NCBI GenBank assembly: GCA_028282385.1
Contig: JANQIB010000009.1
Location: 1 to 61,550 of the forward strand
DNA length: 61,550 bases
Direction: 5' to 3'
Origin: Alphaproteobacteria bacterium
GTDB taxonomy: Bacteria; Pseudomonadota; Alphaproteobacteria; Micavibrionales; Micavibrionaceae
The translations under genes were made by a program, and so were the position numbers. Positions 6,658 to 25,170 of the stretch are shown one piece after another. How positions within the stretch are numbered: position 1 is the first letter of the stretch; each line of letters starts with the position of its first letter. Under the pieces are notes generated by a model. The model worked only from the letters and a program-made list of their open reading frames with translations, was not told the DNA's origin and made no database searches.

Positions 6658-6715
6658 GACTTCATTCCCACACAGTTTATGTTTTTCGACTGTGCGAATT
6701 TTTACATAACAATTA

Positions 6716-6730: not shown

Positions 6731-6744
6731 GAATAACTAATTTT

Positions 6745-7089: not shown

Positions 7090-7100
7090 CTCTTTAAACA

Positions 7101-7688: not shown

Positions 7689-7700
7689 GGATTAAAATAT

Positions 7701-10121: not shown

Positions 10122-10593
10122 GAATACTCTCTCCTTTCATTGAGTTATAGGTAGGGAAAAGTTTTCTCCACTCGGCTTTACATCTTCTAATTTCTGTTTT
10201 CCATGGTCTTGAAATCGCTCTACCGAGCAGTCCCCTATATTCCCAGCTTAAAGCTATAAACACGTCCTGTTCGGCAAATTGCCCAAAAATTCTAATTGCA
10301 GGTAAGGGAGTTGCAACTCTCATATCCCAGATTCCATCGCGTTGCGGTTTCAAAAGAGACATGTGACATTTACGATTATGACCTACGCTCACAACTCTAC
10401 CAGAAACAAATTGGTCCATAATGCTTTGTATACTTCCCTTTTTTGCTTCAGCTTTCGTATGGCCTTCTAACAAAGAACATACGGAAGGTGTCAAATACAG
10501 CGCCCTAATCATAGGATCACCCGGAAATAAGGGCTCATAAACTTTAAGCCTTCCTTCCGCAGTATGTGATTTAAGCATATCATTTATTGACAT
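10090..10593 (-). CDS. RelE/HigB-like toxin candidate
   Basis: The 167-residue protein has a beta-strand core resembling RelE-fold toxins: WDMRVATPLPAIRIFG, then FAEQDVFIALSWEYRGLLG, then a helix WKTEIRRCKAEWRKLFPTY. The assignment rests on this pattern plus its position just upstream of, and overlapping, an Xre-type gene, so it is partly inference. The start codon overlaps the first of three operator palindromes and has no close ribosome site, which suggests a very short leader. The natural target would be ribosome-associated mRNA if the fold is right. Confidence 0.6.
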   Translation of the reverse strand: MSINDMLKSHTAEGRLKVYEPLFPGDPMIRALYLTPSVCSLLEGHTKAEAKKGSIQSIMDQFVSGRVVSVGHNRKCHMSLLKPQRDGIWDMRVATPLPAIRIFGQFAEQDVFIALSWEYRGLLGRAISRPWKTEIRRCKAEWRKLFPTYNSMKGESIHEYLTDAHSE

Positions 10594-10665
10594 TTAAGTC
10601 AATACCTTTGTTGATTTATAAGTCAAGTATACCCACTTTCTATCACAACTTGATTTATAAATCAA
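10587..10665. promoter_or_regulatory. Operator cluster of the toxin-antitoxin operon (three palindromes)
   Basis: Three 16-base dyads of the form TTGA-N8-TCAA occur at 10587-10602 (TTGACATTTAAGTCAA), 10611-10626 (TTGATTTATAAGTCAA) and 10650-10665 (TTGATTTATAAATCAA, a perfect palindrome). The first covers the toxin start codon. This is the layout expected for cooperative autorepression by an Xre antitoxin. Confidence 0.65.
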
Positions 10666-10694
10666 TGTTTATGATTTACCTCTAAAAATATGTA

Positions 10695-10723
10695 TTTGGC
10701 ATACAATTTGGCATACATTTTTT
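10695..10723. repeat. Right arm-type direct repeat of the tRNA-Phe mini-island
   Basis: Identical over 29 bases to 9158-9186 and in the same orientation; tandem TTTGGCATACA units followed by six T. Confidence 0.7.
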
Positions 10724-10786
10724 GATTTTTATGCATTGCAGTAAAATTTTTTTCGTGTATTTATAGCGCCTTACAGGTGTCCGACC

Positions 10787-10821
10787 AGTGGTGCCGCACG
10801 GGCTCTGGGCACCACTTTTTC
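10787..10821 (+). terminator. Hairpin with T-tract at the right end of the mini-island
   Basis: AGTGGTGCC (10787-10795) pairs with GGCACCACT (10808-10816) around a 12-base loop and is followed by a T-run. The 3' arm lies within the right attachment repeat, so the hairpin exists only because the island end abuts it. It may act as a rho-independent terminator, or the dyad may reflect paired core-type integrase sites. Confidence 0.5.
10801..10814. repeat. Right attachment repeat of the mini-island
   Basis: GGCTCTGGGCACCA, identical to the last 14 bases of tRNA-Phe at 9083-9096. Confidence 0.7.
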
Positions 10822-10876
10822 TAAAAATTTAAAAGAGTACGCTTTAGACCTCTTAGCAACGATAAGGAGTTTGCTT

Positions 10877-11050
10877 ATGCTACGCGATATTGTCTGGGCG
10901 GCTTTCCGCCGTGATGTGGAAAGCCGGGAAGAAGATAACAAAGGCGATGAAACCGGTGAGAGCGCTGATGGCGCGGCAGAGACAGGCGGTTTTGATGCCA
11001 AAACAATGGATAACGGGAATTATCCCGCCTATTTGTACCATTTCAATTAA
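10877..11050 (+). CDS. Small acidic hypothetical protein (57 aa)
   Basis: An AAGGAG site lies seven bases before the ATG, and the frame is open for 57 codons, ending five bases from the convergent infA stop. The protein begins MLRDIVWAAFRRDVES and is rich in Asp, Glu and Gly in the middle. It has no recognisable family, membrane segment or signal. The good ribosome site and snug fit support it being real. Confidence 0.5.
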   Translation: MLRDIVWAAFRRDVESREEDNKGDETGESADGAAETGGFDAKTMDNGNYPAYLYHFN

Positions 11051-11055
11051 ATCGG

Positions 11056-11274
11056 TTATTTTTCGCGGAAAATGATCCGGCCCTTGGTCAGATCATAAGG
11101 CGTCATTTCGACAATAACCGTGTCGCCCTGCAGCACGCGGATGCGGTGCTTGCGCATCTTGCCGGCGGCATGGGCCAGGATTTCATGGTCATTTTCGAGC
11201 TTCACCCGGAACATTGCGTTCGGGAGGATCTCGGTCACAACACCTTTAAATTCAAGCAGGTCTTCTTTAGCCAT
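11056..11274 (-). CDS. infA: Translation initiation factor IF-1
   Basis: IF-1 is the 72-residue OB-fold factor that occupies the ribosomal A site during initiation. The sequence is canonical: [20 protein letters not shown], then [20 protein letters not shown], then [13 protein letters not shown]. Length matches the family exactly. In many alphaproteobacteria infA lies directly upstream of maf; here it is on the opposite strand, separated from maf-rng by the tRNA-Phe mini-island. Confidence 0.97.
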
Positions 11275-11369
11275 AGTTTTCCTTTACTTAAGGTTTTCCT
11301 ATATACGCCGGGCGCTTGCGGAATGCAAACAGCTTTTTGTTTGACAGTTAAATAAGAAGAGTCTAATAA

Positions 11370-11564
11370 ATGATTATGACTAAAAAACATACATTTGGAA
11401 ATCCGCTCAAACCCAAATCCGGGTCCGGGATAAAGACTGTTTTTCATGACCCAAATCGTGTGAGGGCTTCAGATATTCCAGATCCATTGCATGAACGTCA
11501 GAGGCAGGAAGCGCTTCGTGATTACCATATAAGAAAGTACGCACACAAATCATCAACGCCATAA
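11370..11564 (+). CDS. Small basic hypothetical protein (64 aa)
   Basis: The 64-residue product is basic and hydrophilic (TFGNPLKPKSGSGIKTVF near the start, LHERQRQEALRDYHIRKYAH near the end). An AAGAAGAG stretch lies upstream. A second ATG at 11376 is an equally good start. Its 3' end overlaps the convergent UPF0262 gene by 12 bases. No family is recognised. Confidence 0.45.
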   Translation: MIMTKKHTFGNPLKPKSGSGIKTVFHDPNRVRASDIPDPLHERQRQEALRDYHIRKYAHKSSTP

Positions 11565-12032
11565 GCGCGGCTGGTCCAGGTGCAGAACGCAAATAAGGGT
11601 AAAGAGACGGCGCGCCGTATCGTGATCCATCTCGATTTTATCTTTCAGCCGCTCAATTAACAGATCTGCTGCCTCGTTATGAAGACCCCGCCGGGCCATG
11701 TCGATTGGCTCCAGCTTGGAGTGAATTCCTTCTGCCCGTACTTTCTCATAAGCTTCGATCATCAGGAAGTAATCCTTTACGATACGCCTGTACGGGCTCA
11801 GAGATAGCATGAAGGCCGGCAAGTCCTCCTCATTTGCGTTTTTTATTTGTAAAACAAAATAGTTATTGCAGATTGATAATTCTAAACGGTACGGACCGTT
11901 ATTGTCATTTAAGGGTTGGAAAGCGCTTTCACGGATCAGGTCGGCAATCGCCGTATCACGTTCATTACTCATCCGCACGGGAGCCTTTTCTTCATGCGGA
12001 TAAATCAGCTTAATCTCGCTCAGAGCATTCAT
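11553..12032 (-). CDS. UPF0262 family protein
   Basis: The 159-residue protein shows the family pattern: [68 protein letters not shown] and a C-terminal [17 protein letters not shown]0262 is an alphaproteobacterial family of unknown biochemical function, usually found among histidine-biosynthesis genes. Here its ATG overlaps the hisG stop by four bases, so the two are co-transcribed and coupled. Confidence 0.9.
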
Positions 12033-12688
12033 GAGTCACCGGCGGCGGCACGGAATTTTTCAATCCAGATGCTAATTTCATCAGGCATGGTTTTGAGTGC
12101 CTTGCGTGAAACAATCAGCCGGGAGCTGACATCGAGGATTTTTTCAACTTCGACAAGACCATTGGCTTTCAGGGTTGAACCTGTTGAGACCAGGTCAACA
12201 ATCCGCTTGGCAAGCCCCATACTAGGGGCGAGCTCCATCGCGCCGGACAGCTTGATACATTCAGCCTGCACGCCGCGCGCGGCAAAATGCCTGCGGGTCA
12301 GGTTTGGATATTTGGTAGCCACGCGGATATGGCTCCAGCGGCGCGGGTCTTCCCCGGCAGCTTCTTCTTCTTGCATGGCCACAGACAGCCGGCAGGCACC
12401 GATTTTGAGGTCAACCGGGGCATAGAGGCTCTCATACTCAAATTCTTCAATGACGTCATTGCCTGCCACGCCGAGATGCGCTGCGCCAAAAGCGGTAAAA
12501 GTCGCCGCGTCAAAAGCCCGTACGCGGATGATGTCGAGATTTGGATGATTGGTTGTGAAACGCAGTTTCCGGCTGTCTTTTTCAAAAAAGTCCTGTTCCG
12601 GCGCAATATCACAGACTGCCAGCAGCGGCAGAAGTTCATCTAAAATACGGCCTTTGGGCACGGCCAGAATGAGTTTGTCTGATGTCAT
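12029..12688 (-). CDS. hisG: ATP phosphoribosyltransferase, short form
   Basis: HisG condenses ATP with PRPP, the first step of histidine synthesis. [18 protein letters not shown] at the start, [16 protein letters not shown] and the PRPP-loop region [19 protein letters not shown] are recognisable. At 219 residues it is the short form without the C-terminal regulatory domain; such enzymes require the HisRS-like partner HisZ, which is not in this window. UPF0262 follows with a four-base overlap. Confidence 0.93.
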
Positions 12689-12799
12689 CAGGGGCTATAA
12701 ACCATATTCTGAAGCGCGTTTGAATAGTTTTGTGTGGCACCTGGGGCTTTTCAACAAGGCTAACATCCATTAGTTCGTTTTTCCTGTTTTTTTAAAGGT

Positions 12800-13513
12800 C
12801 TAATTTTGAGGGGAAGGGGAGCAGTCAGATACAATGAGCTGCAGCGGGGGGTGCGTGGCCTTTTTCTGTCCGGTGCGAGCGCGTATGCTGTCGACTTGTT
12901 GCTCTGCCTGACCTAACAAATATTGAAGCTGTTTTCCAATAGCCGGGGCATGAGGGATAAGACTGCGGATAGCCGGAAGGTCAATTTCCAATAACCGGGA
13001 TATCTCATGAAAGCAAAGATTTTCCGGGTGCTCTACTATTTCGTTTAAGTCTATAAAAGCGTCCAGACAGGCAATGAATAGGCTAGCCGGTTCGCAACCA
13101 GCTTTGTAGCCCCATGTCTGCAAGCTTAGAGATTCTTCAACATAAAGGCTGGCTCGATCTAAAACATCATCATCAAATCCGGGGGTTTTATTTTCGGGAA
13201 ACTCGCCTATACGAAAAAGAGACGGATGACAAAGTGCCGCAATGGCTACAGATTCATAGTAATAGGGTTTTTCTTCAAAAAACAGATCAGCATAAACAGA
13301 AAAAATATCGTAACGGGGTTTGATATATTCATGTGTTTCCCGGAGGGCATGCTGACGGTTTGGGATAGAGCGTTTTGGTCCAAGATCATCCAGATTTTCA
13401 TGAAACAAAAAGCGTATGGCAGCGCATAAATTTCGTTCTTCTCGTGGGATGCCCAGATCCTGAAGAAGAATATCCGCATTGAAATTGCTAATCAAAGGAA
13501 CAGTATCACTCAT
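12800..13513 (-). CDS. Hypothetical protein (237 aa)
   Basis: A soluble, mainly helical acidic protein without a signal peptide, membrane helix or motif I recognise. Its C-terminal third contains LGQAEQQVDSIRARTGQKK, a possible amphipathic helix, followed by a polar tail. It sits between hisG and murA on the same strand; murA, lying upstream of it, ends 16 bases before its start, so it may be transcribed from the murA-dcd promoter. Confidence 0.6.
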   Translation of the reverse strand: MSDTVPLISNFNADILLQDLGIPREERNLCAAIRFLFHENLDDLGPKRSIPNRQHALRETHEYIKPRYDIFSVYADLFFEEKPYYYESVAIAALCHPSLFRIGEFPENKTPGFDDDVLDRASLYVEESLSLQTWGYKAGCEPASLFIACLDAFIDLNEIVEHPENLCFHEISRLLEIDLPAIRSLIPHAPAIGKQLQYLLGQAEQQVDSIRARTGQKKATHPPLQLIVSDCSPSPQN

Positions 13514-13529
13514 TTTATACTTTCAGACT

Positions 13530-14786
13530 TTATCCTTTAAGTCGCTCAATCTCCGCGCCGACATTGCCGAGCTTGGCAACGATATCTTCGTAGCCGCGGT
13601 CAAGATGGTAGATCCGGTTGACGGTGGTTTCTCCGTCTGCGACAAGACCTGCGAGAATAAGAGAAACGGAAGCACGCAGATCGGTCGCCATAACCTCCGC
13701 GCCTTTCAGTTTATCGACGCCGCGCACCAGCGCCGTATTTCCCTGCACGGTAATATTTGCGCCCATGCGGATCAGCTCCGGGACATGCATGAAGCGGTTT
13801 TCAAAAATGGTTTCCGTGACCATCCCCGCGCCCTCGCACAAGGTCAGCATGGTCATAAACTGGGCTTGTAGATCGGTGGGAAAGCCAGGGTAAGGCTCGG
13901 TCATAATGTCCACGCCTTTGAGCTTGGACCCGTTGCGGTGAACAAGCACATCTGCGCCGTCCTGTTTGATCTCGACCCCGGCCAGTTCAAGGCGGGCGAT
14001 CAGGGCGGAGAGAAAGTCAGTCCGGGTATTTTGCAGCCGGACTTGCCCGCCGCAAAGGCCAACCGCGCACATATAAGTGCCGGTTTCAATCCGGTCGGCA
14101 ACAACGTCATGGACCGCACCTTTCAGCTTGTCGACGCCCTGGATCCGGATTTCCGGGGTGCCGAGCCCCTCAATTTGTGCGCCCATTTTAATCAGCGCTT
14201 CGCCCTGGTCGACAATTTCGGGCTCGCGCGCCGCGTTCTTAAGGATTGTTTCCCCTTTGGCCAGCGTGGCCGCCATCATCAGGTTTTCTGTTGCGCCGAC
14301 GGAAGAGACCGGGAAATTAATGACCGCGCCGGTGAGTCCTTTTGGCGCTTTTGCTTTGATGTAGCCGCCATCAAGATCGATTTCTGCGCCCATGGCTTTC
14401 AGGCCCTGAATATGCAGATCGACCGGGCGTCCGCCAAGTGCGCAGCCGCCGGGCAGGGAGACCTCCGCCTGCCCGTGACGGGCGAGCAGGGGGCCAAGAA
14501 CAATGACACTGGCGCGCATTTTACGGACAAGGTCATAAGGCGCGATATGCGAGGTAATATCTTTTGTGCGCAAAATCGCCACGCCATCCGAGCGCAGAGC
14601 CACTGTCATCCCCAGATGGTTGAGCACCTGCGCGAGTGTGCGCACATCAATAAGAGAGTTCGGCATATTGGTGAACTGCACCGGTTCATCGGTCAGCAGC
14701 GCAGCGCACATATGTTTCAGTGCCGCGTTCTTTGCGCCGCTAATCGGGATATCACCTTTCAGACGCGCTCCGCCCACCACGCGCAT
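13530..14786 (-). CDS. murA: UDP-N-acetylglucosamine 1-carboxyvinyltransferase
   Basis: MurA transfers enolpyruvate from PEP to UDP-GlcNAc, the first committed step of peptidoglycan synthesis. MRVVGGARLKGDIPISGAKN at the N-terminus, PGGCALGGRPVDLH with the catalytic Cys, and the C-terminal YHLDRGYEDIVAKL are diagnostic. The ATG at 14786 gives 418 residues, the family size. The frame stays open to 14984, so a longer start (for example 14921) overlapping dcd is possible; a GGAGG lies about 22 bases before the chosen ATG. Confidence 0.92.
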   Translation of the reverse strand: MRVVGGARLKGDIPISGAKNAALKHMCAALLTDEPVQFTNMPNSLIDVRTLAQVLNHLGMTVALRSDGVAILRTKDITSHIAPYDLVRKMRASVIVLGPLLARHGQAEVSLPGGCALGGRPVDLHIQGLKAMGAEIDLDGGYIKAKAPKGLTGAVINFPVSSVGATENLMMAATLAKGETILKNAAREPEIVDQGEALIKMGAQIEGLGTPEIRIQGVDKLKGAVHDVVADRIETGTYMCAVGLCGGQVRLQNTRTDFLSALIARLELAGVEIKQDGADVLVHRNGSKLKGVDIMTEPYPGFPTDLQAQFMTMLTLCEGAGMVTETIFENRFMHVPELIRMGANITVQGNTALVRGVDKLKGAEVMATDLRASVSLILAGLVADGETTVNRIYHLDRGYEDIVAKLGNVGAEIERLKG

Positions 14787-14856
14787 CTTGTCCAGCCCGG
14801 ATGATTTGACCTCCGCGCTGATCAGCTCGATGGTTTGCGGTTCGTCCGCCTTCCCT

Positions 14857-15438
14857 TTAGCTTTTGATGCGGGGGAGGGTGACACCACGCTGTCCCATGT
14901 ATTTTCCTTTGCGGTCGGCATAACTGGTCTCGCAGGGGGTTGATCCTTTAAAAAACAAAAACTGACACAGCCCTTCGCCGGCATAGACTTTCGCCGGTAG
15001 CGGGGTTGTGTTTGAAACTTCCAGCGTCACATGGCCTTCCCAGCCGGGCTCTAAGGGGGTGACATTCACAATCAGTCCGCAGCGCGCATAGGTCGATTTG
15101 CCAAGGCAGATCACCAGCACGTCTTTGGGAATTTTAAAATATTCTACGGAGCGTGTGAGGGCAAAACTATTGGGTGGTACAATGCAGACATCTGTTTTGC
15201 GGTCGACAAAACTTTTTTCAGAAAAATCTTTTGGGTCGACAATGGCGTTATCGACATTGGTGAAAATTTTAAATTCATCGGAGCAGCGGGAATCGTAACC
15301 GTACGAACTCAGGCCGTAGGAGATTTTGCCTTCGGCTGTCTGCTTTTCAACAAACGGATCGATCATGCCTTCATTCAGGGCCAGGTCCCGGATCTGATGA
15401 TCGGCGAGAATACCCGGCAGGCCACCCGCGGCGGCCAT
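14857..15438 (-). CDS. dcd: dCTP deaminase
   Basis: Dcd deaminates dCTP to dUTP in thymidylate supply. [55 protein letters not shown] and the catalytic-Glu segment [10 protein letters not shown] are visible. I chose the ATG at 15438 because a GAGG precedes it and it starts just after the upstream small gene ends; an in-frame ATG at 15480 would overlap that gene. It probably forms an operon with murA downstream. Confidence 0.93.
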
Positions 15439-15454
15439 GCCCTCAATCTCATTC

Positions 15455-15595
15455 TCATTTGCTTTTTTCAGCTTTTGCATCTTTGTCTTCTCTTTGCCGC
15501 GCCTGGCTTTTGCGCTTTGCTAGATTATCCCGCAAAGCCTTGGCGCGCTCGTCTTCCTTGGACGGCATACTCAGTTTTTTATACTTATCGTCCAT
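15455..15595 (-). CDS. Small basic helical protein (46 aa)
   Basis: The 46-codon frame encodes a Lys/Arg/Ala-rich helix: [20 protein letters not shown], with many Lys and Glu near the end. Short proteins of the form ALRxNLxRRKxQxR are common just upstream of murA/dcd in alphaproteobacteria, usually annotated as hypothetical. It ends 16 bases before the dcd start on the same strand. Function unknown. Confidence 0.6.
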
Positions 15596-15711
15596 TTATG
15601 GTCGAATTTTGTTCTGTTTACGAAATAATCTTGGATTTATAGACGAAAAGGGACTTCAAATACCAGTCTTTTTGGTGTAAAGCCTCAAGGTCCCTGTGGA
15701 CGGGACAGGAT

Positions 15712-15751
<40 letters not shown>

Positions 15752-16096
15752 CAAAGTCAATATTTTTATTTCCGTCTCTACCCTATAATTCACAAGGGTT
15801 TTAGAATTTTCTCAAAACCAGAAGATGTAAGACCCCACTCATTCCCCACTTTTAGAATCAAATAATCTCAAAGAGTTATCGTTTTTTCCGAAATATTTCT
15901 GACTGAAAAAACTTTATCTCGAAGGGGGAGGGGAAAAAATAAGGGGGCATCAAAGATAGTAAATAAGCCTGTTTAAAAAATTTGATGTATTTTTCTCTAG
16001 GTTGCAGTATCTTGTTCATTGCACCCTATTATTATTGTTTCTATCCTAGAAGCTATTGGCTTTCGGTTAAATCTCAACAGTTAAAGAGAGTAAATT
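15752..16096. other. Left end of the element, non-coding
   Basis: This 345-base AT-rich stretch separates attL from the OLD-family gene. It contains the left integrase arm repeat (15832-15852) and a purine-rich tract near 15922-15948. A promoter for the gene at 16097 should lie in its last 100 bases; I cannot assign -35/-10 boxes with confidence. I see no convincing small gene. Confidence 0.6.
15832..15852. repeat. Left arm-type repeat of the 9.4 kb element
   Basis: A tandem CCCCACT motif (CCCCACT-CAT-TCCCCACTTT). It matches 24987-25007 at 20 of 21 positions in the same orientation, so it is a probable arm-binding site of the element's integrase. Confidence 0.72.
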
Positions 16097-18052
16097 ATGT
16101 ACATGCGTTTGAAAAAATTTCAGGTTGATGATTATAAATCCATAAAATCCTTCGATCCGTGCTGGCTTGCTGCGGACATTACGATTTTTGCTGGCAAGAA
16201 TGAATCGGGTAAGACTGCTGCTCTGCAAGCCTTAAGTGATTTTGATCCCAAAACAAAGAGCCTCCGAGAAGATGCTGTACCACTAGAGGACGAATCTTTA
16301 GAGCCTGCATTACAATTATGGTTTGATATTCCTAAGACTTTAAGATCGCAAATATTCGAGGGCACAGGGATTGTACTCAACAAGGATTGCAATGATTATC
16401 TTGATAAGCATGGTTTTCCCATAGTTAAAGAATTTGAAGGCGAGTTCAGTATTGGACCTGAGTTTGAAGATATTCTTGATGACAGCACAGAAGTAGACAC
16501 CTTACAGGCTTTCAAGATGGCAAAGGACTGTGTAGCTGTATTGTCTAGCTTAGACGAAAGATTTGCGAACATTGAAAGCATTAAGGACGGAACTAACTTT
16601 GCCGATTTAAAGAATAAGATCAGCGCAATTGTGACGGCTCCCAAACCAAAAGCTCCAGATGGACAACCTCAGTCAGAACAAGAAGTGAAACCCTTTGACG
16701 AAGAAACGCAGGCTATTCTTCAGAATTTGAATACAGCTTTAGATTTTTTGATTGAAACCAGAGATTACGATACAGTTTTAGAGCGGGTGTACAAATACAT
16801 GCCAAGGTTCGTGTTTTTTGACAGCTTTGAACATGACTTACCTTATGAAGTGTCGCTAGGAGAAGTTGAAAACCATCCTGCGATATTAGATTTTTTAAAG
16901 GTTGCAGATATTGATATTGAGCAAGTCAGAGCTACAACGGATGAACAAAAAAGAAGGAACCTATTGAGTGGAAAGTCAGCAGTCATCAGCGGTGACTTCA
17001 AAGGGTTCTGGCAACAGGATAAAATAAAGCTTAAGGCAAGGGTTTCCGATGGCAAGTTCATTTTTGAAATTGAAGAAGATGACAAAACCTATGCCTTTAA
17101 GCCAGAGCAAAGAAGTAAAGGATTCCAATGGTTTCTTTCTTTTTATTTGAGATTAAAAGCAGAAAACATACTAGGAACTGAACAACATGCTGTTCTTTTG
17201 ATCGATGAGCCCGGTCTTTATCTTCATGCGACCGCTCAACAAGACGTATTGTCAGTTCTTGAAAGTCTTGCCAATGATGGCGCTCAAGTTATCTTTTCCA
17301 CTCATTCCCCATATTTGCTAGATACGGCAAGGTTTGACAGGATTAAGCTCGTAACAAAGGATTTAAGCCATGTGGGGACGGTTGTGCATAATAAAATGCA
17401 TAAAAACGCTGACAGGGACACACTTACGCCCATTGTTACAGCCTTAGGCCACGATATTGCTAGAGACTCTTCTTTAGTTCGAGACAGAAATGTTCTGCTT
17501 GAAGGTATGTCTGATTATTATTTTATTACGGCAATGGCAGAATACTTGGGTGTTTTACGCACCATTTCAGATGTGAGCCTCATGCCATGTAAGGGAGCAA
17601 GTCAAATTCATCTCGTTGCCTCTATTTTGTTCGGTTGGGGGCTTAACTTTATTGCTGTCTTAGACAACGATAAGGAGGGTAAGGCTGCTGCAAAGGGGCT
17701 CCGTGAAGGGTTGGATATGCCGGAAGAACAAATAATTGTTGTTTCCGAAGATACAAACGCCACGATCGAAGATTTATTTTCAAGAGAAGATTTTCTTGAA
17801 CATGTCTTGTCTGTTGACGTGAAAGAAGCGGCTGATGAAGAAAAGCCGAATTCAAAGTATGTCAAAGTCAATATGGATAAAGTTTTACTGGCTAAAAGCT
17901 TTTTAGATAAGGTCAGAAAAGATGGAAAGTCTATGAAGTTGTCAAAGACCACCCAAGATAATTTCATGGAGCTTCTAACGAATATTCCTCAAGCGTTTGA
18001 AGTAAAAAATAAAGATAATCAGGGAAGTCAAAAAGCGGCTAACGAGCGTTGA
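16097..18052 (+). CDS. OLD-family ATP-dependent endonuclease (AAA/ABC ATPase + TOPRIM)
   Basis: The N-terminal ABC-type ATPase has Walker A GKNESGKT (residues 33-40), Walker B VLLIDEPGLYLH (about 365-376) and the switch FSTHSPYLLD. The C-terminal TOPRIM nuclease begins at VLLEGMSDYYF (about 466, catalytic Glu) and has the metal-binding pair in AVLDNDKEGKAA (about 518-528). At 651 residues this is the OLD/GajA architecture found in antiphage systems. No GajB-type helicase gene follows, so it is not a standard Gabija pair; it may act alone or with the next gene. It is the first gene of the element. Confidence 0.85.
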   Translation: MYMRLKKFQVDDYKSIKSFDPCWLAADITIFAGKNESGKTAALQALSDFDPKTKSLREDAVPLEDESLEPALQLWFDIPKTLRSQIFEGTGIVLNKDCNDYLDKHGFPIVKEFEGEFSIGPEFEDILDDSTEVDTLQAFKMAKDCVAVLSSLDERFANIESIKDGTNFADLKNKISAIVTAPKPKAPDGQPQSEQEVKPFDEETQAILQNLNTALDFLIETRDYDTVLERVYKYMPRFVFFDSFEHDLPYEVSLGEVENHPAILDFLKVADIDIEQVRATTDEQKRRNLLSGKSAVISGDFKGFWQQDKIKLKARVSDGKFIFEIEEDDKTYAFKPEQRSKGFQWFLSFYLRLKAENILGTEQHAVLLIDEPGLYLHATAQQDVLSVLESLANDGAQVIFSTHSPYLLDTARFDRIKLVTKDLSHVGTVVHNKMHKNADRDTLTPIVTALGHDIARDSSLVRDRNVLLEGMSDYYFITAMAEYLGVLRTISDVSLMPCKGASQIHLVASILFGWGLNFIAVLDNDKEGKAAAKGLREGLDMPEEQIIVVSEDTNATIEDLFSREDFLEHVLSVDVKEAADEEKPNSKYVKVNMDKVLLAKSFLDKVRKDGKSMKLSKTTQDNFMELLTNIPQAFEVKNKDNQGSQKAANER

Positions 18053-18070
18053 TGTATTCGACTACATCAA
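18049..18070. promoter_or_regulatory. Inverted repeat between the OLD-like gene and the next gene
   Basis: TTGATGTA-TTCGAC-TACATCAA is a perfect eight-pair dyad overlapping the stop of the OLD-like gene, with another TACATCA four bases further on. It could be a repressor site or an mRNA hairpin; there is no T-tract. Confidence 0.4.
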
Positions 18071-18190
18071 AACTACATCACAGCCCATATCAGAACGGCC
18101 AACAAACCATGGAAAAGAGAGAAATTGGCTATTATAAGGTCTGTTTAGCTACGGTGTTGCGAAAAGCTTAATGTATTTTTGTCTATTAAA

Positions 18191-19111
18191 ATGACTGTAA
18201 ATCCAGAAGATTTAAGAAAAAAGATATTAGGATGCTTTGGGGATAAGAAACCTGATCCTGAAAAGCTTGATTTTTTTATAGCTGAAATCCTTGCCGACTT
18301 GGGAACCTTGATACAAGATGAGGGTGATTTTTTGTCAGAGATAGAAACGTCTATAAAGATAAGCAGTGCTCAGAAAAAATACAGAGAAGATATAGCCGAT
18401 AAAAAAATCTATCTGGATGAGCTACAAACCAAGCTTCAAAAATTCCAAAAAGAATATTTTAAAATCAAGAAGAGATTAACCACTGACTACAGCTCTTTTT
18501 TACAGGATGGTTCTATCCAGTATCATCTGGAACGGGGCGAGTTGATAGAAAATGAAGAAGGGGAACCTCTCTATAAATGGACACGGGATTTATATGATTT
18601 TGATCCAGAGGAGGGCATTATTCCTTTTGAGGAACATGTAAGACGCCTAGAAGAGAGTTTGAGTGTTCTTGCTGCTGCTACAGAGTGCGAGATATCTTCT
18701 TTCAAGAAAGGCGCTGGCCGGCCTAAGAGCTATAATCCATACACTATTTTCATAGCCAAGGTGTGCGCTTTGTCTCATTGTTTGCTGGGTCTTAGGATCA
18801 AGAAAACCAATAATGAAGTTGATACTTTTTTTAAACTGATTTTGGTGATGCTTCGCTTGGTTCAACCAGATGAAAAAGGTGAGAAAGCAGGAAAAGGGGC
18901 AAGAATATCTCGTATCGTTAGCCCTTGTTTCGATGATCCTCAAGCCATCATTTCAATGGCAAAGCATTACAAAAAATATGATTGTCTTGATCTTTATATC
19001 GAGCATGTAAAGCAAACACCTCATGCTGAAACCATCATAGATTATTTTGAGCATGAATGGGCTGATTGGGAAAAGCCTAAAAACTATAAAGAGTTACGTT
19101 CAGGGACATAA
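18191..19111 (+). CDS. Element-encoded hypothetical protein (306 aa)
   Basis: The N-terminal half is charged and helical with a probable coiled coil (YLDELQTKLQKFQKEYFKIK, about residues 75-95). The C-terminal half is helical and contains KGAGRPKSYNPYTIFIAKVC and a segment resembling a replication- or phage-associated helical domain. I do not recognise the family. ATG 18191 is preferred over an in-frame TTG at 18179. It lies 138 bases after the OLD-like gene on the same strand and could be its partner, but that is only position. Confidence 0.65.
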   Translation: MTVNPEDLRKKILGCFGDKKPDPEKLDFFIAEILADLGTLIQDEGDFLSEIETSIKISSAQKKYREDIADKKIYLDELQTKLQKFQKEYFKIKKRLTTDYSSFLQDGSIQYHLERGELIENEEGEPLYKWTRDLYDFDPEEGIIPFEEHVRRLEESLSVLAAATECEISSFKKGAGRPKSYNPYTIFIAKVCALSHCLLGLRIKKTNNEVDTFFKLILVMLRLVQPDEKGEKAGKGARISRIVSPCFDDPQAIISMAKHYKKYDCLDLYIEHVKQTPHAETIIDYFEHEWADWEKPKNYKELRSGT

Positions 19112-19228
19112 ATACCCCTCTTTTTTCTTCAATTCCTGTCACAGAGGAAAATTCATTTCGTCTCTAAAATTTGGTTTTAGAGATTGGCGCAGTGCTGATC
19201 TCTTAATTTCAAACTAGGAGAATGTCTA

Positions 19229-19438
19229 ATGGATATTTTACTGCTTCGTGACAAGGATGTTGCATCCATGATTGGAATGTCAGCGTCTTGGGTCAGAGTT
19301 CAACGTTTAAAGAGAAGAAGAGGGGAGGGTCATAGTTTTCAGATTGATCCTGTTCTAATCGGTTCAACCCCCAGATATAGAAAAGAAGAGGTTCTTTGTT
19401 GGCTTCGCTCTCTTACTGATGGAGGGGTAGATGCCTAA
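19229..19438 (+). CDS. AlpA/excisionase-like helix-turn-helix protein
   Basis: The 69-residue protein starts LLLRDKDVASMIGMSASWVR, a MerR/AlpA-type winged helix-turn-helix, and ends RYRKEEVLCWLRSL, the usual final helix of that fold. Proteins of this size and fold regulate excision or early transcription in satellites and prophages. Its end overlaps the next gene by eight bases, so it is coupled to the polymerase-like protein. AGGAG precedes the ATG. Confidence 0.75.
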   Translation: MDILLLRDKDVASMIGMSASWVRVQRLKRRRGEGHSFQIDPVLIGSTPRYRKEEVLCWLRSLTDGGVDA

Positions 19439-20804
19439 AGATAAAAGATTTAATCCTTTGGATCGTTCAGAGCTTTTGCGGCTAAATCTGGAATGTGTTG
19501 AGCATCAGGATGCATTTGAAAACTGTTTGGACCGTATCCTTGCTGTATTCGAAGAAGCCGATATTAAAAGTAGAAAGACTGATATAAAAGAAGCTCTAAA
19601 AGCTTTGCTGCTTAATCTTATTTTGGTCTATAAGGCGCATCCAGAAAAATATATTGCGTGTTCTTTTGACAAGAAAAAAGGCTTTGCAGGGTTTGATAAT
19701 CCTTTTGGGGTAAAGGTAGCTACATATAGAAAAACTGTCCTGTTCTTGGCTGATTGCGGTTACTTGGAGCTACATAAAGGTTTCTTTGACCATATGAGTG
19801 GGATTGGACGAAACACAAGATTTAAAGCAAGTGAAAGTCTTTTAAACATATTAGCTGAATATGGTCTTATTGATTTAGAGCGCCATCAAAACTCAGCACG
19901 TTTGAAAATCGTTCATTCTTATGACGGTATTATTTTAAAAGATGGAAATAAGAAGGTGGTTGATTATAGAGAAGAGTATGATTTTGATGATCCTTTACAA
20001 GCTTTATTTTTACCAGATAGGGTATTTTTGCGTGATTATAATACTCTTCTTGAGGCTACAGACATTTCTCTTCCTCAGGAAATCCTCTCTAAGGTTATAG
20101 AAGAAGGCGCTGGTATTAATCTTGATTTAAAATATGTCCATCGTGTTTTTAACAATAATGATTTTAATCAAAATGGTCGTTTTAACGGGGCTTGGTGGTA
20201 TTACGCTAAGAGCTTCGTAAGAAAGCATATCAAAATTAATGGTCAGCCAACAGTTGAGCTTGACTATTCTTCCATACATCCTTGGCTATGCTATATGAAA
20301 TGTGGTGATTTGAGGCATATTTTGAATATGGGTGATGCTTATGAAGTGGATAGAAGATACCCTCGCTCTCTCGTCAAGCTTGCTATGTTGATGATGTTTA
20401 ATGCAGAAAATACTAAGAAGGCATGGGGAGCACTGTTAATGAAGCTTAATAATGAAAAGATGGGTGACTTTAAAGAACATGTTAAAACCTTAGACGGGTT
20501 TAGAGCCTTAGAAAAAGCTATCTTGGATGCTCATTTCCCTATTCATGAATGTTTTTATACCAACATGAGCTATGAGTTGATGAATAAGGATGCTGAAATT
20601 GCAGAGCATATTTTAAAAGAAATGACGTACTCTGATCCGGCAGTTCCTTGTTTGTCAGTTCATGATTCTTTTATTGTTCCAGAAGATAAAGAACAGCAGT
20701 TGTTGCGCGCTATGAAAGAAGCCTTTCCTGATACTCATACTTGTTACACTTCACCACCAATTAAAAAAGAAAATGGCGAAACTCTATATTTTCCTAATGA
20801 ATAA
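19431..20804 (+). CDS. Minimal family-A-polymerase-like protein (replication protein candidate)
   Basis: The C-terminal half carries three elements in the order of the DNA polymerase A palm. Motif A-like is TVELDYSSIHPWL (about residues 274-286; PolA has DYSQIELR). Motif B-like is RSLVKLAMLMMFNA (R-x3-K-x7, then NA where PolA has YG; about 309-323). Motif C-like is LSVHDSFIVP (about 408-417; PolA has VHDE, here HDS). No exonuclease region is seen. I infer a divergent single-subunit polymerase or primase-polymerase used for replication of the element. The N-terminal 250 residues look helical and may bind DNA. The change of the motif C acidic residue to Ser could also mean it is catalytically altered. 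Confidence 0.6.
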   Translation: MPKDKRFNPLDRSELLRLNLECVEHQDAFENCLDRILAVFEEADIKSRKTDIKEALKALLLNLILVYKAHPEKYIACSFDKKKGFAGFDNPFGVKVATYRKTVLFLADCGYLELHKGFFDHMSGIGRNTRFKASESLLNILAEYGLIDLERHQNSARLKIVHSYDGIILKDGNKKVVDYREEYDFDDPLQALFLPDRVFLRDYNTLLEATDISLPQEILSKVIEEGAGINLDLKYVHRVFNNNDFNQNGRFNGAWWYYAKSFVRKHIKINGQPTVELDYSSIHPWLCYMKCGDLRHILNMGDAYEVDRRYPRSLVKLAMLMMFNAENTKKAWGALLMKLNNEKMGDFKEHVKTLDGFRALEKAILDAHFPIHECFYTNMSYELMNKDAEIAEHILKEMTYSDPAVPCLSVHDSFIVPEDKEQQLLRAMKEAFPDTHTCYTSPPIKKENGETLYFPNE

Positions 20805-21119
20805 AAAACTTTAAAGAATAATCTCTATCTCTAAAGCTAATCTACTATATGATGTTGTTATCTTAATAATAATTATAGAGATAAATAGAGATAATGATAT
20901 AGGGGCTACATTACTAAGTAACTTTGTGTTGTACCGATTACTAAGGTATTTTAAGAGGTGTTATAAAAGGCAATCCAAGGAGCTATACCCCTCTTTTAAA
21001 ATGGCTCTATTTGCCAAAATAAGGACTCTCTGGAGGGGTTGTTAAGATTGCAGCTTACACCCTACCTGTGTTTGCAAAATGGACTCAGTGACTCTTAAAA
21101 TGGAAAGTAGGGGGTATTC
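20805..21119. other. AT-rich non-coding region, candidate replication origin or regulatory region
   Basis: No credible gene is present. The stretch contains inverted copies of an AGAGATA element (CTCTATCTCT near 20823, and AGAGATAAATAGAGATAATG near 20877) and several AAAATGG-containing repeats (near 21000, 21077 and 21098) with nearby GACTC or GGCTC. It lies between the polymerase-like gene and the divergent Xre regulator, a common place for an origin or operator cluster. This is only positional inference. Confidence 0.35.
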
Positions 21120-21323
21120 TTATTTCAACAAAGTCGATGGTTTAATTTCTAAAGCCTCTGCAATTTTGAGAAGCACAGGAACAGAGAAAGCCACATGTCC
21201 ATTTTCAATTCTGGAGATATAATTACGAGCTACATCTGACTCTCCAGCCAAATCCTCTTGGCTCATGCCTTTAGATTGCCTTTCTCTCATTATTGCCAGT
21301 CCTATGGATTCTAAATCTGCCAT
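21120..21323 (-). CDS. Xre-family transcriptional regulator (67 aa)
   Basis: The protein is one Cro/C1 helix-turn-helix domain: LAIMRERQSKGMSQEDLAGE then VARNYISRIENGHVAFSV and LLKIAEALEI. It is the smallest regulator type found in elements and probably sets expression of the divergent operon starting at 21392, whose start is only 68 bases away. The gap contains TTAACTATGATATACAA and GATCGTTAAC, which may be half sites of one operator. Confidence 0.85.
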   Translation of the reverse strand: MADLESIGLAIMRERQSKGMSQEDLAGESDVARNYISRIENGHVAFSVPVLLKIAEALEIKPSTLLK

Positions 21324-21391
21324 AGAAACGGATTGTTAACTATGATATACAAAACCACTGTAAATGATCGTTAACAAAAGGTTTTAATACC

Positions 21392-22405
21392 ATGATTGGT
21401 TTGTTGTTATCTATTGTAAGTGCATTTGGTGTTTATCGGTTTGGGAAATTAGGAAAGCTTTCTGTGAAAATGAGAAGCGGTACTCCCCTATCGCCACAAG
21501 AAATGGCTTATGTTCAGTCCCAGCCTAACTGGATTCTTGATAACCCTAATTTATGTAGATTGCTTGGGAATATTGCTCCGTTTGGCTTGATTCTGGGATT
21601 AATTCTAATTTTTTTAGGTATATATTTACCAGAAAGTCAGAGCGATAATTCCGTTCATGTCTCCTCCCAGACTTTAAAGCAGAACAAAATTGAATCTCAG
21701 CATGCCTTTAATCCACAGACTCGTGAAATCGCCAAATTGAATCCTGAAACACAAGAATGGGAAATTTCAGGAACCATTGACGATCTTGAACCGGAAGAAA
21801 AATTTTCACACTATGCTGTTAATTCAGAGACAGAAGAGCGCATCGGCTATAATAAGTTCACCAAAAAGTGGGAACCTGTTCCAAAAACAATATCAGTTCT
21901 TGATAAAATGAAAGTGGCTGCATCTAAAAGTAAATTAATTTCAGATGAAAACTTTTTCTCATTGTTTAATGATACCTGTGTTTCAAAATCATTCGATTAT
22001 GGAGCGGTAGAAAGTACTGCAAATATTCTAAAATGGCCTAAACTCAGTGATGCAGAATTAAAAGCATTTTTGCCCCCTGATTCAAACAAAGCTATGGGTT
22101 GGAAGGCTGAAAGAAATGAGGAGATATATTTACTTGTCCTGAGTTGGGGACAAATTTATGGAGATGGTCAAGAATATAGAGTATGTACACTCATGAGTGT
22201 CTATAAAGATTATGGCAGTTTGGACCATTTAATCCAGAAATATATAAGAACAAGTGATCGAAAGGTTTATGACGAGCCAGATCAAAAAATTATCTCTTAT
22301 TACGCAATTTCACAGCATAATGAACCATTGGTAATCTACTTAAAGAAAAGCAATTTTGAGTCTAATAATGTGGTTTTATTAGAAGCTATCTCTGAAGCAA
22401 AATAA
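21392..22405 (+). CDS. Membrane-anchored hypothetical protein (337 aa)
   Basis: The first residues form a hydrophobic helix (MIGLLLSIVSAFGVYRFG) and a second follows at about 58-80 (IAPFGLILGLILIFLGIYLP). A large soluble C-terminal part follows, with YNKFTKKWEPV in the middle. The intervening loop carries basic residues. The soluble part contains one Cys (NDTCVSKSF) and aromatic-rich stretches. No family is recognised. It heads a tight three-gene operon with a 103-residue protein (one-base overlap) and a macro-domain protein. A membrane plus NAD-metabolite-binding pairing suggests a defence or signalling role, which is inference. Confidence 0.65.
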   Translation: MIGLLLSIVSAFGVYRFGKLGKLSVKMRSGTPLSPQEMAYVQSQPNWILDNPNLCRLLGNIAPFGLILGLILIFLGIYLPESQSDNSVHVSSQTLKQNKIESQHAFNPQTREIAKLNPETQEWEISGTIDDLEPEEKFSHYAVNSETEERIGYNKFTKKWEPVPKTISVLDKMKVAASKSKLISDENFFSLFNDTCVSKSFDYGAVESTANILKWPKLSDAELKAFLPPDSNKAMGWKAERNEEIYLLVLSWGQIYGDGQEYRVCTLMSVYKDYGSLDHLIQKYIRTSDRKVYDEPDQKIISYYAISQHNEPLVIYLKKSNFESNNVVLLEAISEAK

Positions 22406-22716
22406 TGGAAAAAAGAAATTTCTGGATAAATCCACACGGAGAAAGCGGTATAGAGTGGGGAACAATATATATACCTAATAGCGGGATTTATTTTACTTTA
22501 TTTGCCAATCAGGATGGGGAAACGTTTGCTAGAAAAGTTTTTGGAAACTATGAAGCTGCAAGTTTTTACTTACAAGAGTCAGGGTTTACACCGTATATGC
22601 GAAGACAAGAATTGCATCATATAATTCAGCCACCTGAAAAATTATATGGTGAGCATATTAGTTTAAGAAAGCCTGATAGGCTTAAAAATAAAATATTCAA
22701 ATTTTTTACAAAATAG
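22405..22716 (+). CDS. Hypothetical protein (103 aa)
   Basis: The ATG overlaps the previous stop by one base (TAATG), and the stop TAG is followed directly by the macro-domain ATG. The protein is soluble and aromatic-rich (FWINPHGESGIEWGTIYIPN, GNYEAASFYLQESGFTPYM) and ends with a basic tail. It is not recognised. The tight packing indicates it works with the other two proteins of the operon. Confidence 0.6.
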   Translation: MEKRNFWINPHGESGIEWGTIYIPNSGIYFTLFANQDGETFARKVFGNYEAASFYLQESGFTPYMRRQELHHIIQPPEKLYGEHISLRKPDRLKNKIFKFFTK

Positions 22717-23220
22717 ATGAAAGCTTTAAAGGTATTCAAAGGCGATATTACAACCTATAAAGCAGAGGCTATTGTTAATGCTGCAAATTCTAATTTGTTA
22801 GCTGGTGGGGGTGTTTGTGGTGCCATTCATAAAAAAGCAGGAAAAGAATTAGAGGAATATTGCAAACCCCTTGCTCCATGCTCTACAGGAGAGGCTGTTT
22901 TGACCCCTGCCTTTGGATTAGATTCCAAGTACGTTATTCATGCGGTCGGCCCACGCTGGTATGATGGAACGAGAAACGAAGCTGATCTTCTGGCAAAGGC
23001 TTATGATAGTATCTTTTTCATTGTTAAAGAGAACAACATTCGATCTGTTGCTATTCCTGCCATAAGTACAGGGATTTATAATTTTCCCCTAGAGCAAGCC
23101 ACACATATAGCAGTTGAGAGAGCAAAGACGTTTCTAAAATCTTCTCCAGATACAGAGATTATTTTTGTCTGCTTTGATGATGAAACATTCCAGAGTTACT
23201 ACAGTAATTTAAAAATATAA
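22717..23220 (+). CDS. Macro-domain protein (ADP-ribose / O-acetyl-ADP-ribose hydrolase-like)
   Basis: The 167 residues are one macro domain: VFKGDITTYKAEAIVNAANS (ligand-contacting Asp and Asn), then LLAGGGVCGAIHKKAG, YVIHAVGPRWYDG and PAISTGIYNFPLEQA, all characteristic of MacroD/YmdB-type enzymes. Such proteins bind ADP-ribose and remove it from proteins or nucleic acids. Within this element it could counter or sense ADP-ribosylation during phage conflict; that is inference. No ADP-ribosyltransferase (DarT-like) gene is adjacent. Confidence 0.88.
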   Translation: MKALKVFKGDITTYKAEAIVNAANSNLLAGGGVCGAIHKKAGKELEEYCKPLAPCSTGEAVLTPAFGLDSKYVIHAVGPRWYDGTRNEADLLAKAYDSIFFIVKENNIRSVAIPAISTGIYNFPLEQATHIAVERAKTFLKSSPDTEIIFVCFDDETFQSYYSNLKI

Positions 23221-23341
23221 ATAAGCTTATGAGTGGTTATAGCTGGTTTACCTGGCATCTCTTCTTAATCCTTTCAAAAACAAAGGAAAAACAAGGGTGA
23301 CAAAGCAAATAAATTCCATTAAAAGGATAAAGTTTTGGTGT

Positions 23342-23634
23342 GCTGCCGTAGCTCAGTGGTAGAGCACTCCCTTGGTAGATAAACTTGCCTTGCAGTAGGG
23401 AAACTTACTGATAGAAACTGCTCAAATTCGGGGAAACCTTTCAAATGGCAATCCCGAACCAAGCCCTAAACACAGGGAAGGTGTAGAGACTAAACGGGCA
23501 GCATCTAAGCCTCTTTTTTCAAGAGGTATGATGAAGAGATAGTCCAGACCACAAACACTCTTATTGAGTGGCAGTGAAAACTGTAGCTGGTATGAAGGGA
23601 GAGGTCGGAAGTTCAATCCTTCTCGGCAGCACCA
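23342..23634 (+). tRNA. tRNA-Thr (GGU) with group I intron, carried by the element
   Basis: The exons 23342-23376 and 23595-23634 join to a 75-base cloverleaf. It has acceptor GCTGCCG/CGGCAGC, D arm GCTC/GAGC, anticodon stem CTCCC/GGGAG, loop TTGGT|AA with anticodon GGT, T arm GGAAG/CTTCT and an encoded CCA. It differs from the split host copy at only two positions, 6 and 67, which pair (C-G here, T-A there). The intron sits between positions 36 and 37. The gene lies next to the integrase and probably supplies the tRNA-Thr function lost when the element inserted. A GTGACA / TAAAAG pair about 17 bases apart upstream may be its promoter. Confidence 0.93.
23377..23594 (+). ncRNA. Group I self-splicing intron (IC3-like) in tRNA-Thr
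   Basis: The 5' exon ends in U and the intron ends in G (23594), as group I introns require. The internal guide GCC (23387-23389) pairs with the GGU anticodon (P1, ending in the G-U pair). I can pair P2 (CAGTA/TACTG, 23393-23410), P3 (CTGCTC 23418/GGGCAG 23496), P4 (TTCGGG 23427/CCCGAA 23453), P6 (CCCT/AGGG, 23464-23477), P7 (GACT 23488/AGTC 23541), P8 (CCTCTT/AAGAGG, 23510-23526) and P9 (CACTC/GAGTG, 23556-23570). The order and the TGTAGAGACT element closely resemble the tRNA-Ile intron of Azoarcus. At 218 bases it has no room for a homing endonuclease. Confidence 0.92.
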
Positions 23635-23637
23635 TTT

Positions 23638-24882
23638 TTACCGCAAAAACGTAACGTTATTTATAATGTTCTCTGCTCTTAGAGCAGTTCTGTTGTTTCT
23701 GGCCTCATTGATTCTTTCTTCAATATAATTCCCTGTTTTAATGGACGCCTCTTTCAAGGCCGTATCAAGAACAACAGAGTAGTATTTTTGAATCATTTGA
23801 AGGTCTTTATGCCCTGTAATTCCTGTTAATGTTTTGGGGTCAACACCGGATATAAGAGAGTAAGTGATATTTGTTCTCCTGAAATCATGGATGCAAAAAT
23901 CTATTTTTGTTTTCTCTCTTAGTATTTTTATCTTTCTCGTAATGAGAGATTGAGAAATTGGAAAGATTCTTTTTTCTTCTGCTGGAACATTCTCTCTTTG
24001 TGATGATAGTATTTTGAGCATTTGTTCATTGCAGGGAAGTTGTCTTGGTTTTCCGCTTTTGCTATCGGGAATATGAGCAATAATACGCCCATTCTCCAGT
24101 TTTTTAATATCCGTCCATTCTAAATATAGTGCTTCACTTCTTCTCATTGCCGAGTAGATAAGCCAAGCAACGTAATTCCCAAAGGTTTGATTAAGCTTTT
24201 GGGTTTCCTCTAATATTATAAGAATTTCATTCTTTTTGAGGACATTCAGCTTTCCCCCAGTGATCTTAATTTTATCGCTGTTATCGCATGGATTAGTCTG
24301 GATAAGTTCTTCCCTTTTTGCGCTGTTAAGTATTGAACAAAGAACAGCTTTTTCTCTTTGAACAGTGGAAGGTTTAACTTTTTTCATTCTTCCTGCTTGC
24401 CAGAGATTAATATCTCTCACATTCACATCTTCAATTTCTTTTTTGCTAAAGAAAGGGAGCAGGTGATTATTAATCGTATATCTTGAAGTTAACGGGCTTT
24501 TCTGGCGTGTCTGAGCAATTTGCATCCAACCTTCTGCATAATCTTTAAATGTAATGCGCTTTCTGTCCTCTAAAGGCTGGTTTTTATCTGCTCTGGCTTG
24601 AAGGTTGTCTCTGTGTGCCTCTAATTCCTGCCAGTTCCATGATTTTAGAGACCCTAAAGAAATTTCCAAGGAATGTCCTTCTGGATAGCTTCTGCCCTTG
24701 TAGGTTCCACCGTGTCTAAGAAATATTTTGATATAGGCTTTATCTCCGGTTTTGCCTCTGAATATGCCTATATTATTCACATAAACAGGGCGTTTATTCA
24801 TGCTTTTAGCAGGGTATTGTTTTAATATATCTTCATAGATACTGTAGCGGCTTGGTCTGCCTCTGGGTGTCTTGTGTGTCAT
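23638..24882 (-). CDS. int: Tyrosine recombinase (integrase) of the element
   Basis: The 414-residue protein has an N-terminal arm-binding region (about 1-105), a SAM-like core-binding domain (about 110-190) and the catalytic domain. The tetrad is visible: R247 in SAMRRSEALYLEW, Lys in DSKSGKPRQLP (about 275), H332 and R335 in IHDFRRTNITY, H358 in ITGHKDLQ and the nucleophile Tyr in IQKYYS (367 or 368). The gene runs toward the intron-containing tRNA and its stop is three bases from the tRNA end. It should recognise TTGGTAAGGG and the CCCCACT arm repeats. Confidence 0.95.
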   Translation of the reverse strand: MTHKTPRGRPSRYSIYEDILKQYPAKSMNKRPVYVNNIGIFRGKTGDKAYIKIFLRHGGTYKGRSYPEGHSLEISLGSLKSWNWQELEAHRDNLQARADKNQPLEDRKRITFKDYAEGWMQIAQTRQKSPLTSRYTINNHLLPFFSKKEIEDVNVRDINLWQAGRMKKVKPSTVQREKAVLCSILNSAKREELIQTNPCDNSDKIKITGGKLNVLKKNEILIILEETQKLNQTFGNYVAWLIYSAMRRSEALYLEWTDIKKLENGRIIAHIPDSKSGKPRQLPCNEQMLKILSSQRENVPAEEKRIFPISQSLITRKIKILREKTKIDFCIHDFRRTNITYSLISGVDPKTLTGITGHKDLQMIQKYYSVVLDTALKEASIKTGNYIEERINEARNNRTALRAENIINNVTFLR

Positions 24883-24986
24883 GGTTGCCTCCTTTCCTTG
24901 AATGTAGAAAAAAGAGGCCTACTTCTCTGTGACAGGAATATAATTAAAATTTGGACCATTATTGTCACCAACCTGATAGAGTTTAC

Positions 24987-25007
24987 ACCCCACTCAATCC
25001 CCACTTT
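24987..25007. repeat. Right arm-type repeat of the 9.4 kb element
   Basis: A tandem CCCCACT motif (CCCCACT-CAA-TCCCCACTTT), 20 of 21 positions identical to 15832-15852 and in the same orientation. It lies upstream of the integrase start, so it could also affect int expression. Confidence 0.72.
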
Positions 25008-25125
25008 GAACGTATTAAAATGGGTATGAATGGTAAGAACACCAATAACGGTTAATTTTATGAAAGCCTTATCCACTGCGGAACACAGGTGATAATTGAT
25101 AACCGCTATAACATCAGGATAGTCG

Positions 25126-25170
25126 TTGGTAAGGGAGAGGTCGGAAGTTCAATCCTTCTCAGCAGCACCA
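25126..25170 (+). pseudogene. 3' half of the split host tRNA-Thr (GGU), with attR core
   Basis: It begins with the core TTGGTAAGGG (25126-25135) and continues through the variable loop, the T arm (GGAAG-TTCAATC-CTTCT) and the acceptor strand CAGCAGC to ACCA. The acceptor strand pairs perfectly with GCTGCTG of the 5' half at 15712, not with the GCTGCCG of the intron copy. The sequence upstream of the core is unrelated to a tRNA, so no functional tRNA is rebuilt. Confidence 0.92.

Follow-up and report, generated by a model that had tools for sequence, protein, structure and literature searches.

Group I introns in tRNA genes use anticodon loops, and in bacteria such introns are usually viewed as neutral passengers. 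tRNA-dependent lysogeny has been shown in mycobacteriophages including Fionnbharth and Gabriela, and the mycobacteriophages Boilgate and Fionnbharth provide a contrast between a long core that rebuilds the host tRNA gene and a short core that does not (PMC10865867). In bacteria, group I introns have been reported from tRNA-Leu, tRNA-fMet, tRNA-Ile and other tRNA genes (PMC8450103, PMC4033280, PMC3984707). For archaea, PMC3293823, citing Randau and Soll 2008, relates the idea that tRNA genes are guarded against integration by their introns. Here, we describe a group I intron within a tRNA-Thr(GGU) gene carried by an integrative element, which lies in a 61,550-nucleotide (nt) stretch (the window) of an alphaproteobacterial metagenome-assembled genome (MAG; 1.77 Mb, 159 contigs, 90.6% complete). 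We propose, with a probability of roughly 0.78, that the intron is part of a rescue tRNA which a tRNA-dependent integrative element carries, and that it shields the rescue gene from the element's integrase. The arrangement of the following features suggests this shielding role.

15712-15751, forward strand: orphan 5' half of the native tRNA-Thr(GGU) gene (tRNA positions 1-40; GCTGCTG...CTCCC, then TTGGTAAGGG)
15742-15751, forward strand: attachment core at the left junction, TTGGTAAGGG, equal to the anticodon loop plus three stem bases
15742-25135, no strand: integrative element, core to core, inside the native tRNA-Thr(GGU) gene (unit length 9384 bp; placed by its direct repeats, base composition and the corresponding locus in genome G009)
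23342-23376, forward strand: 5' exon of the element-borne rescue tRNA-Thr(GGU), from the spliced tRNA call
23377-23594, forward strand: group I intron of 218 nt, from the RF00028 match, fold and covariation
23385-23389, forward strand: guide UUGCC, forming P1 through GCC and the anticodon GGU, with P10 possible through UU and AA of the 3' exon
23418-23423, forward strand: 5' strand of P3 (partner 23496-23501)
23488-23492, forward strand: 5' strand of P7, the guanosine-binding helix (partner 23540-23544)
23595-23634, forward strand: 3' exon of the rescue tRNA-Thr with CCA encoded, from the spliced tRNA call
23638-24882, reverse strand: tyrosine integrase of 414 amino acids, adjoining the rescue tRNA and the right end (Pfam Phage_integrase 1.7e-14; PHROG integrase 1.3e-48)
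25126-25135, forward strand: attachment core at the right junction, TTGGTAAGGG
25126-25170, forward strand: orphan 3' half of the native tRNA-Thr gene (tRNA positions 31-75, ending in CAGCAGC ACCA)

A search with the spliced tRNA-Thr sequence returned four pieces in the window, namely the two exons of the intron-containing gene, a 5' half and a 3' half. An earlier reading of this DNA (the original prediction) had described the intron and overlooked the latter two pieces, which are the split halves of the native gene. The acceptor arms of these halves, GCTGCTG and CAGCAGC, pair at 7 out of 7 positions, and the rejoined halves are called as tRNA-Thr(GGT), with no tRNA called at either junction alone; the two halves therefore belong together. 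Beyond TTGGTAAGGG, the flanks of both halves are unrelated to tRNA. This 10-bp sequence occurs just twice in the window (at 15742 and 25126), and the predicted attachment site of the element (attP) would read GATAGTCG-TTGGTAAGGG-CAAAGTC. The GC content is 0.374 for the element versus 0.474 and 0.476 for the flanking DNA. In G009, a genome of the same genus, an intact, intronless tRNA-Thr gene occupies the native locus and the right flank is syntenic; the tRNA-Thr gene is linked to dcd/murA genes in many other family members too. The block at 11056-15700 is inverted relative to G009, and this block ends at the tRNA-Thr gene in both genomes.

The rescue copy has the acceptor arms GCTGCCG and CGGCAGC. 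It differs from the native gene at two of 75 nt, which make up one compensatory acceptor base pair, C6-G66 in place of the native U6-A66, and without its intron it is identical to the target over positions 7-65. Because only this acceptor pair differs in 75 nt, an intronless rescue gene would be a perfect chromosomal attachment site (attB). The intron cuts the integrase core within the rescue gene, at TTGGT/AAGGG (the slash marking an exon-intron boundary here and below). No other intact tRNA-Thr(GGU) gene was found in the genome besides the rescue copy at 23342-23634. A simple scan for a sigma-70-like promoter upstream of the rescue tRNA found none, and such a scan says little for this lineage.

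As in tRNA-dependent integration, the locus combines a tyrosine integrase and a 10-bp core with a host tRNA that is rebuilt at neither junction; it departs from canonical tRNA rebuilding in that attP supplies no missing part of the tRNA. The tRNA of Fionnbharth is reported not to be closely related to the host tRNA, with no intron described (PMC10865867), whereas the rescue tRNA in the window closely matches the native one, and a group I intron interrupts its core. Compared with the tRNA-dependent phages, the window element is small, and it may not be a phage. As for the phages, there is a sister integrase type with a long rebuilding core, represented here by two classic tRNA-targeting elements at tRNA-Gly(GCC) (L152 in G103, 9689-15474; L153 in G059, 2364-8351). 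These elements share with the window element a related integrase (35% identity), a core whose start lies at the anticodon stem-loop and, in G059, the phage-type protein PHROG 4756. By contrast, their core measures 49 bp and rebuilds the tRNA, and no intron-bearing tRNA was seen near them.

As originally predicted, the sequence at 23377-23594 is that of a small group I intron of the type known from tRNA genes, here in tRNA-Thr(GGU). The Rfam scan (cmscan) that had been named as a check placed Intron_gpI (RF00028) at 23367-23566 with 74.4 bits, above the gathering score of 50, and an E value of 4.7e-17; this model also takes in the exon end. When joined, exons 23342-23376 and 23595-23634 were called as tRNA-Thr(GGT) by ARAGORN, and the unspliced gene was not called. 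The sequence and this call bear out the expected boundaries, with U as the last base of the 5' exon and G as the last base of the intron (TTGGT/...TTGCC...GGTATG/AA). The guide does pair with the anticodon itself, through GCC at 23387-23389 and GGU at 23374-23376, with a U.G pair at the splice site. Pairing is also possible between its UU and the AA that opens the 3' exon, which would give a continuous P1/P10, so that the guide UUGCC spans the ligated anticodon loop. All Thr introns carry TTGCC as their guide sequence, and all Leu introns carry a TTGAGT-type guide for ACTT/AA.

The intron RNA folds 3.5 standard deviations better than its own shuffles (z -3.5). The core helices that had been drawn by eye also held up across 18 related introns: the 32 core pairs of P3-P8 and the P9-region hairpin are paired in 99.1% of cells, double changes fill 29 cells versus 7.8 in shuffles, and shifting the helix partners by sliding ruins the fit. 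We found no reading frame of useful length in the open reading frame list within the 218-nt intron, in agreement with the expected lack of a homing endonuclease. The size and core text of the intron resemble those of tRNA IC3 introns, which we take as a resemblance only. Like the Azoarcus tRNA-Ile(CAU) intron and other IC3 tRNA introns, it is small, has a similar core, a short anticodon-loop guide and U.G at the 5' splice site, and lacks an endonuclease gene; it differs from them in its host, a tRNA-Thr(GGU) gene that serves as the rescue copy for a native gene which the element destroyed. The bacterial hosts listed with the original prediction (tRNA-Leu, tRNA-Ile and tRNA-Arg) omit tRNA-fMet (PMC8450103). 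Since the intron tree is unresolved and a single origin of the Thr introns was not rejected (approximately unbiased test, p-AU 0.445), we claim neither one nor several origins for them.

From these features, we infer the following mechanism. The tyrosine integrase appears to have used the 10-bp core to integrate the element at the anticodon loop of native tRNA-Thr(GGU); the sequence shows this gene split and not rebuilt. The element brings with it a complete tRNA-Thr(GGU), one acceptor base pair off the native one; the native gene being destroyed, the cell would be kept alive by the tRNA of the element. Within this rescue copy, the intron interrupts the core, and self-splicing guided by UUGCC would yield a normal tRNA-Thr. 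Because its half-sites are 218 bp apart, the rescue gene would be useless to the integrase as a target, and the element would be spared recombination with its own tRNA. The attB site would also be gone for a second or rival element, while threonine decoding by the host would be kept. Excision would rejoin the halves into an intact native gene. The shield would act at the DNA level and be removed at the RNA level. The idea that being cargo gives the intron a route of spread stands in so far as it is indeed cargo of an integrative element, but that idea missed the destroyed native tRNA-Thr, the apparent replacement copy and the position of the intron exactly in the integrase core.

tRNA-Thr(GGU) had also been put forward as a possible new host context for such introns. 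Our literature search, which had most subscription papers outside its reach, found no report of bacterial tRNA-Thr(GGU) group I introns, but the genome is not unique: this intron site is also used in four more genera of the Micavibrio family, and three genomes from elsewhere among the alphaproteobacterial families share it. A second genus (G029) has an orphan 5' half, an intron-bearing tRNA-Thr, an integrase 50% identical to that of the window and an orphan 3' half. The native tRNA-Thr of G029 has its own sequence (GCTGCTA and TAGCAGC), and the flanking signature is the same as in the window.

Several further loci were seen around this type. tRNA-Thr(GGU) introns with the TTGCC guide lie in other alphaproteobacterial families at L206 (G265), L207 (G316) and L208 (G411), with no orphan halves seen nearby. 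G110 holds the right end of a related, decayed element (L156, 7249-7987), comprising an orphan 3' half of tRNA-Thr and an integrase that is truncated; intact tRNA-Thr copies are present elsewhere in this genome, and contig ends limit the interpretation of this locus. In G069 (L081, 117-492), a run of N edged by a 20-base repeat interrupts a tRNA-Thr gene and may stand for an insertion at the anticodon loop that was left unassembled. In G446, from another family, a related integrase adjoins an orphan tRNA-Val(GAC) 3' half (L176, 2250-2286); an intact tRNA-Val is present elsewhere, there is no intron, and the contig is cut.

Most placeable group I introns of the order lie within elements that split the native tRNA-Leu(UAA) gene at ACTTAAAATC. 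An orphan tRNA-Leu 5' half, followed by an integrase-like gene within about 2 kb and then by an intron-bearing tRNA-Leu, was found in G060, G076, G081, G101, G104, G132 and G133. The 3' half is also visible in G060; in G101, the contig stops within the intron. Other combinations, with further orphan tRNA-Leu halves or attP-like cores, occur in G050, G063 and G102. The integrases of the tRNA-Leu elements form their own family, being 56-79% identical to one another and 19% identical to the window integrase. Contig 4 of G132 (L196/L197) carries two tRNA-Leu elements in tandem between the native halves, each with its own intron-bearing tRNA-Leu. These native halves pair with each other at 7 out of 7 positions and poorly with the rescue copies, and the second element entered at the attachment core of the first. 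Near the ends of tRNA-Leu elements (L202, L204, L198 and L194), downstream of the left core, we observed a repeated TTACACATGTCTTAC-like motif, which may be an integrase arm site.

A third isotype is represented by a tRNA with anticodon CAU in element L115 of the MAG contig PFND01000030 (Alphaproteobacteria bacterium CG_4_10_14_0_8_um_filter_53_9). This contig has an orphan 5' half at 13597-13641, an orphan 3' half at 1042-1087, an integrase and an inverted intron-bearing CAU copy at 7667-7963, whose intron splits CTCAT/AATGCC. The scan of named-genome contigs that yielded this element returned almost only tRNA-Leu and is no measure of the absence of Thr introns. Taking the three isotypes together, it is fairly probable that self-splicing introns of bacterial tRNA genes can be maintained and spread by hiding a tRNA gene from an integrase without harm to the tRNA, having been adopted at least three times (Thr-GGU, Leu-UAA and CAU) by gene-splitting elements to shield their rescue tRNA.

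Because integrases and tRNA introns both favor anticodon loops, and because most of our cases had been found via introns, we performed a reverse search starting from orphan halves. We looked across the order for a contiguous tRNA-Leu 5' half plus core and inspected about 125 genomes downstream; after exclusion of five intact genes and two unrelated sites, 12 genomes with an orphan half were left. An RF00028 match was present in 9 out of 12 of these genomes and in 4 out of about 113 others (Fisher p of about 1e-8, which ignores the relatedness of the genomes and is a guide only). As a control, tRNA-Leu introns of Burkholderiales had no orphan half in 8-kb windows, which indicates that native tRNA introns are generally unlike the arrangement described here. 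Several observations weigh against a shielding role. Of the 12 genomes, G013, G061 and G106 have no RF00028 match; their contigs end 0.2-0.9 kb from the half, which leaves a rescue tRNA out of view. Intron-bearing tRNA-Thr or tRNA-Leu genes without an orphan half nearby were found in G030, G033, G107, G073, G075 and G411 and in a second copy in G063; these may be relics, relocated genes or ordinary introns. Moreover, given the preference of both agents for anticodon loops, their overlap could partly be coincidence.

The element might instead have taken up a tRNA that already had its intron, the core position then being a by-product of the shared anticodon-loop preference that was never selected as a shield. 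tRNA-Leu introns are found family-wide, element-free intron tRNAs exist, and anticodon loops are used by both agents (for integrases, PMC10865867). We nevertheless consider this unlikely, given the recurrence in three isotypes with at least two integrase families, the prediction of introns by orphan halves and the perfect attB that an unshielded rescue copy would offer in the window; the effect at the DNA level would in any case be the same even if it had not been selected. It is slightly more plausible, although still doubtful, that other invaders, rather than the element's own integrase, are what the intron mainly shields against (superintegration exclusion). After integration, intact cores remain at the element's own ends only, and the idea that an intron blocks integration has been published for archaea (PMC3293823, citing Randau and Soll 2008). 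However, the tandem arrays of G132, with a second element at the attachment core of the first, mean that any such exclusion is incomplete. Shielding from the element's own integrase and exclusion may act together.

Two other explanations have very little to recommend them. Under one of them, the intron is of the ordinary native kind known from tRNA genes of Burkholderia or cyanobacteria, and the tRNA pieces nearby are unrelated scars of integration. The intron type and core are like those of other tRNA group I introns, and element-free cases do occur (G030, G033 and G107). For the window, however, this explanation is contradicted by a native gene that is identifiable, split and placed at a locus conserved among relatives; in addition, the intron tRNA sits between both cores, beside the integrase and in DNA of lower GC content. 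An assembly artefact, in which misjoined contigs supplied the extra halves, is more improbable still. The window does come from a MAG assembled into 159 contigs, but independent genomes show the same architecture, with native sequences that differ from one genome to another and halves that pair within each.

The remaining genes of the element are as follows.

16097-18052, forward strand: OLD/AriA-like AAA ATPase with a TOPRIM domain, defence-like cargo
18179-19111, forward strand: element protein with no assigned function, with a distant homologue in the G029 element (24% identity)
19431-20804, forward strand: phage-type protein of PHROG 4756, of unknown function, with homologues in the G029 and G059 elements
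22717-23220, forward strand: macro-domain protein, cargo (Pfam Macro 3e-43)

The OLD/AriA-like ATPase and the macro-domain protein are possibly defence genes. Besides its integrase, the 9.4-kb element encodes one phage-type protein, and no structural genes were recognized in the protein scans made. We found no close relatives of the integrase in IMG/VR, phages or plasmids. Among phage-like contigs of IMG/VR (L164, L165, L167, L169, L170, L171 and L172), we observed similar group I introns that interrupt tRNA genes of several isotypes; in L164, the intron-split tRNA gene lies beside an integrase gene. A 2014 review recorded phage introns in protein genes only.

The proposal of Randau and Soll and the case of the Caldiarchaeum tRNA-Thr(GGU) (PMC3293823) resemble the window in that integration would be blocked by an intron placed at the attachment site and in that tRNA-Thr(GGU) is split by a mobile element. 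They differ in that the archaeal introns are removed by proteins and were proposed to protect the host, whereas the window has a predicted self-splicing bacterial intron on the element itself. No report joining group I introns with the shielding of attachment sites was found in our literature search, most subscription papers again lying outside it. Repeated adoption as a shield would give group I introns a selectable role and would be a bacterial version of the old intron-blocks-integration proposal.

Neither the rescue gene nor either half is picked up by tRNA finders, so that genomes of this kind seem to be without an essential tRNA, and annotators should be warned accordingly. In at least three isotypes, introns sit precisely where the integrase of their carrier would be expected to cut, in the single gene copy on which both host and element depend. 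If the shielding role is true, a self-splicing intron would have a concrete benefit, and the intron-blocks-integration proposal would become directly testable in a two-plasmid assay. tRNA-dependent integration would then reach beyond the actinobacteriophages in which it has been demonstrated.
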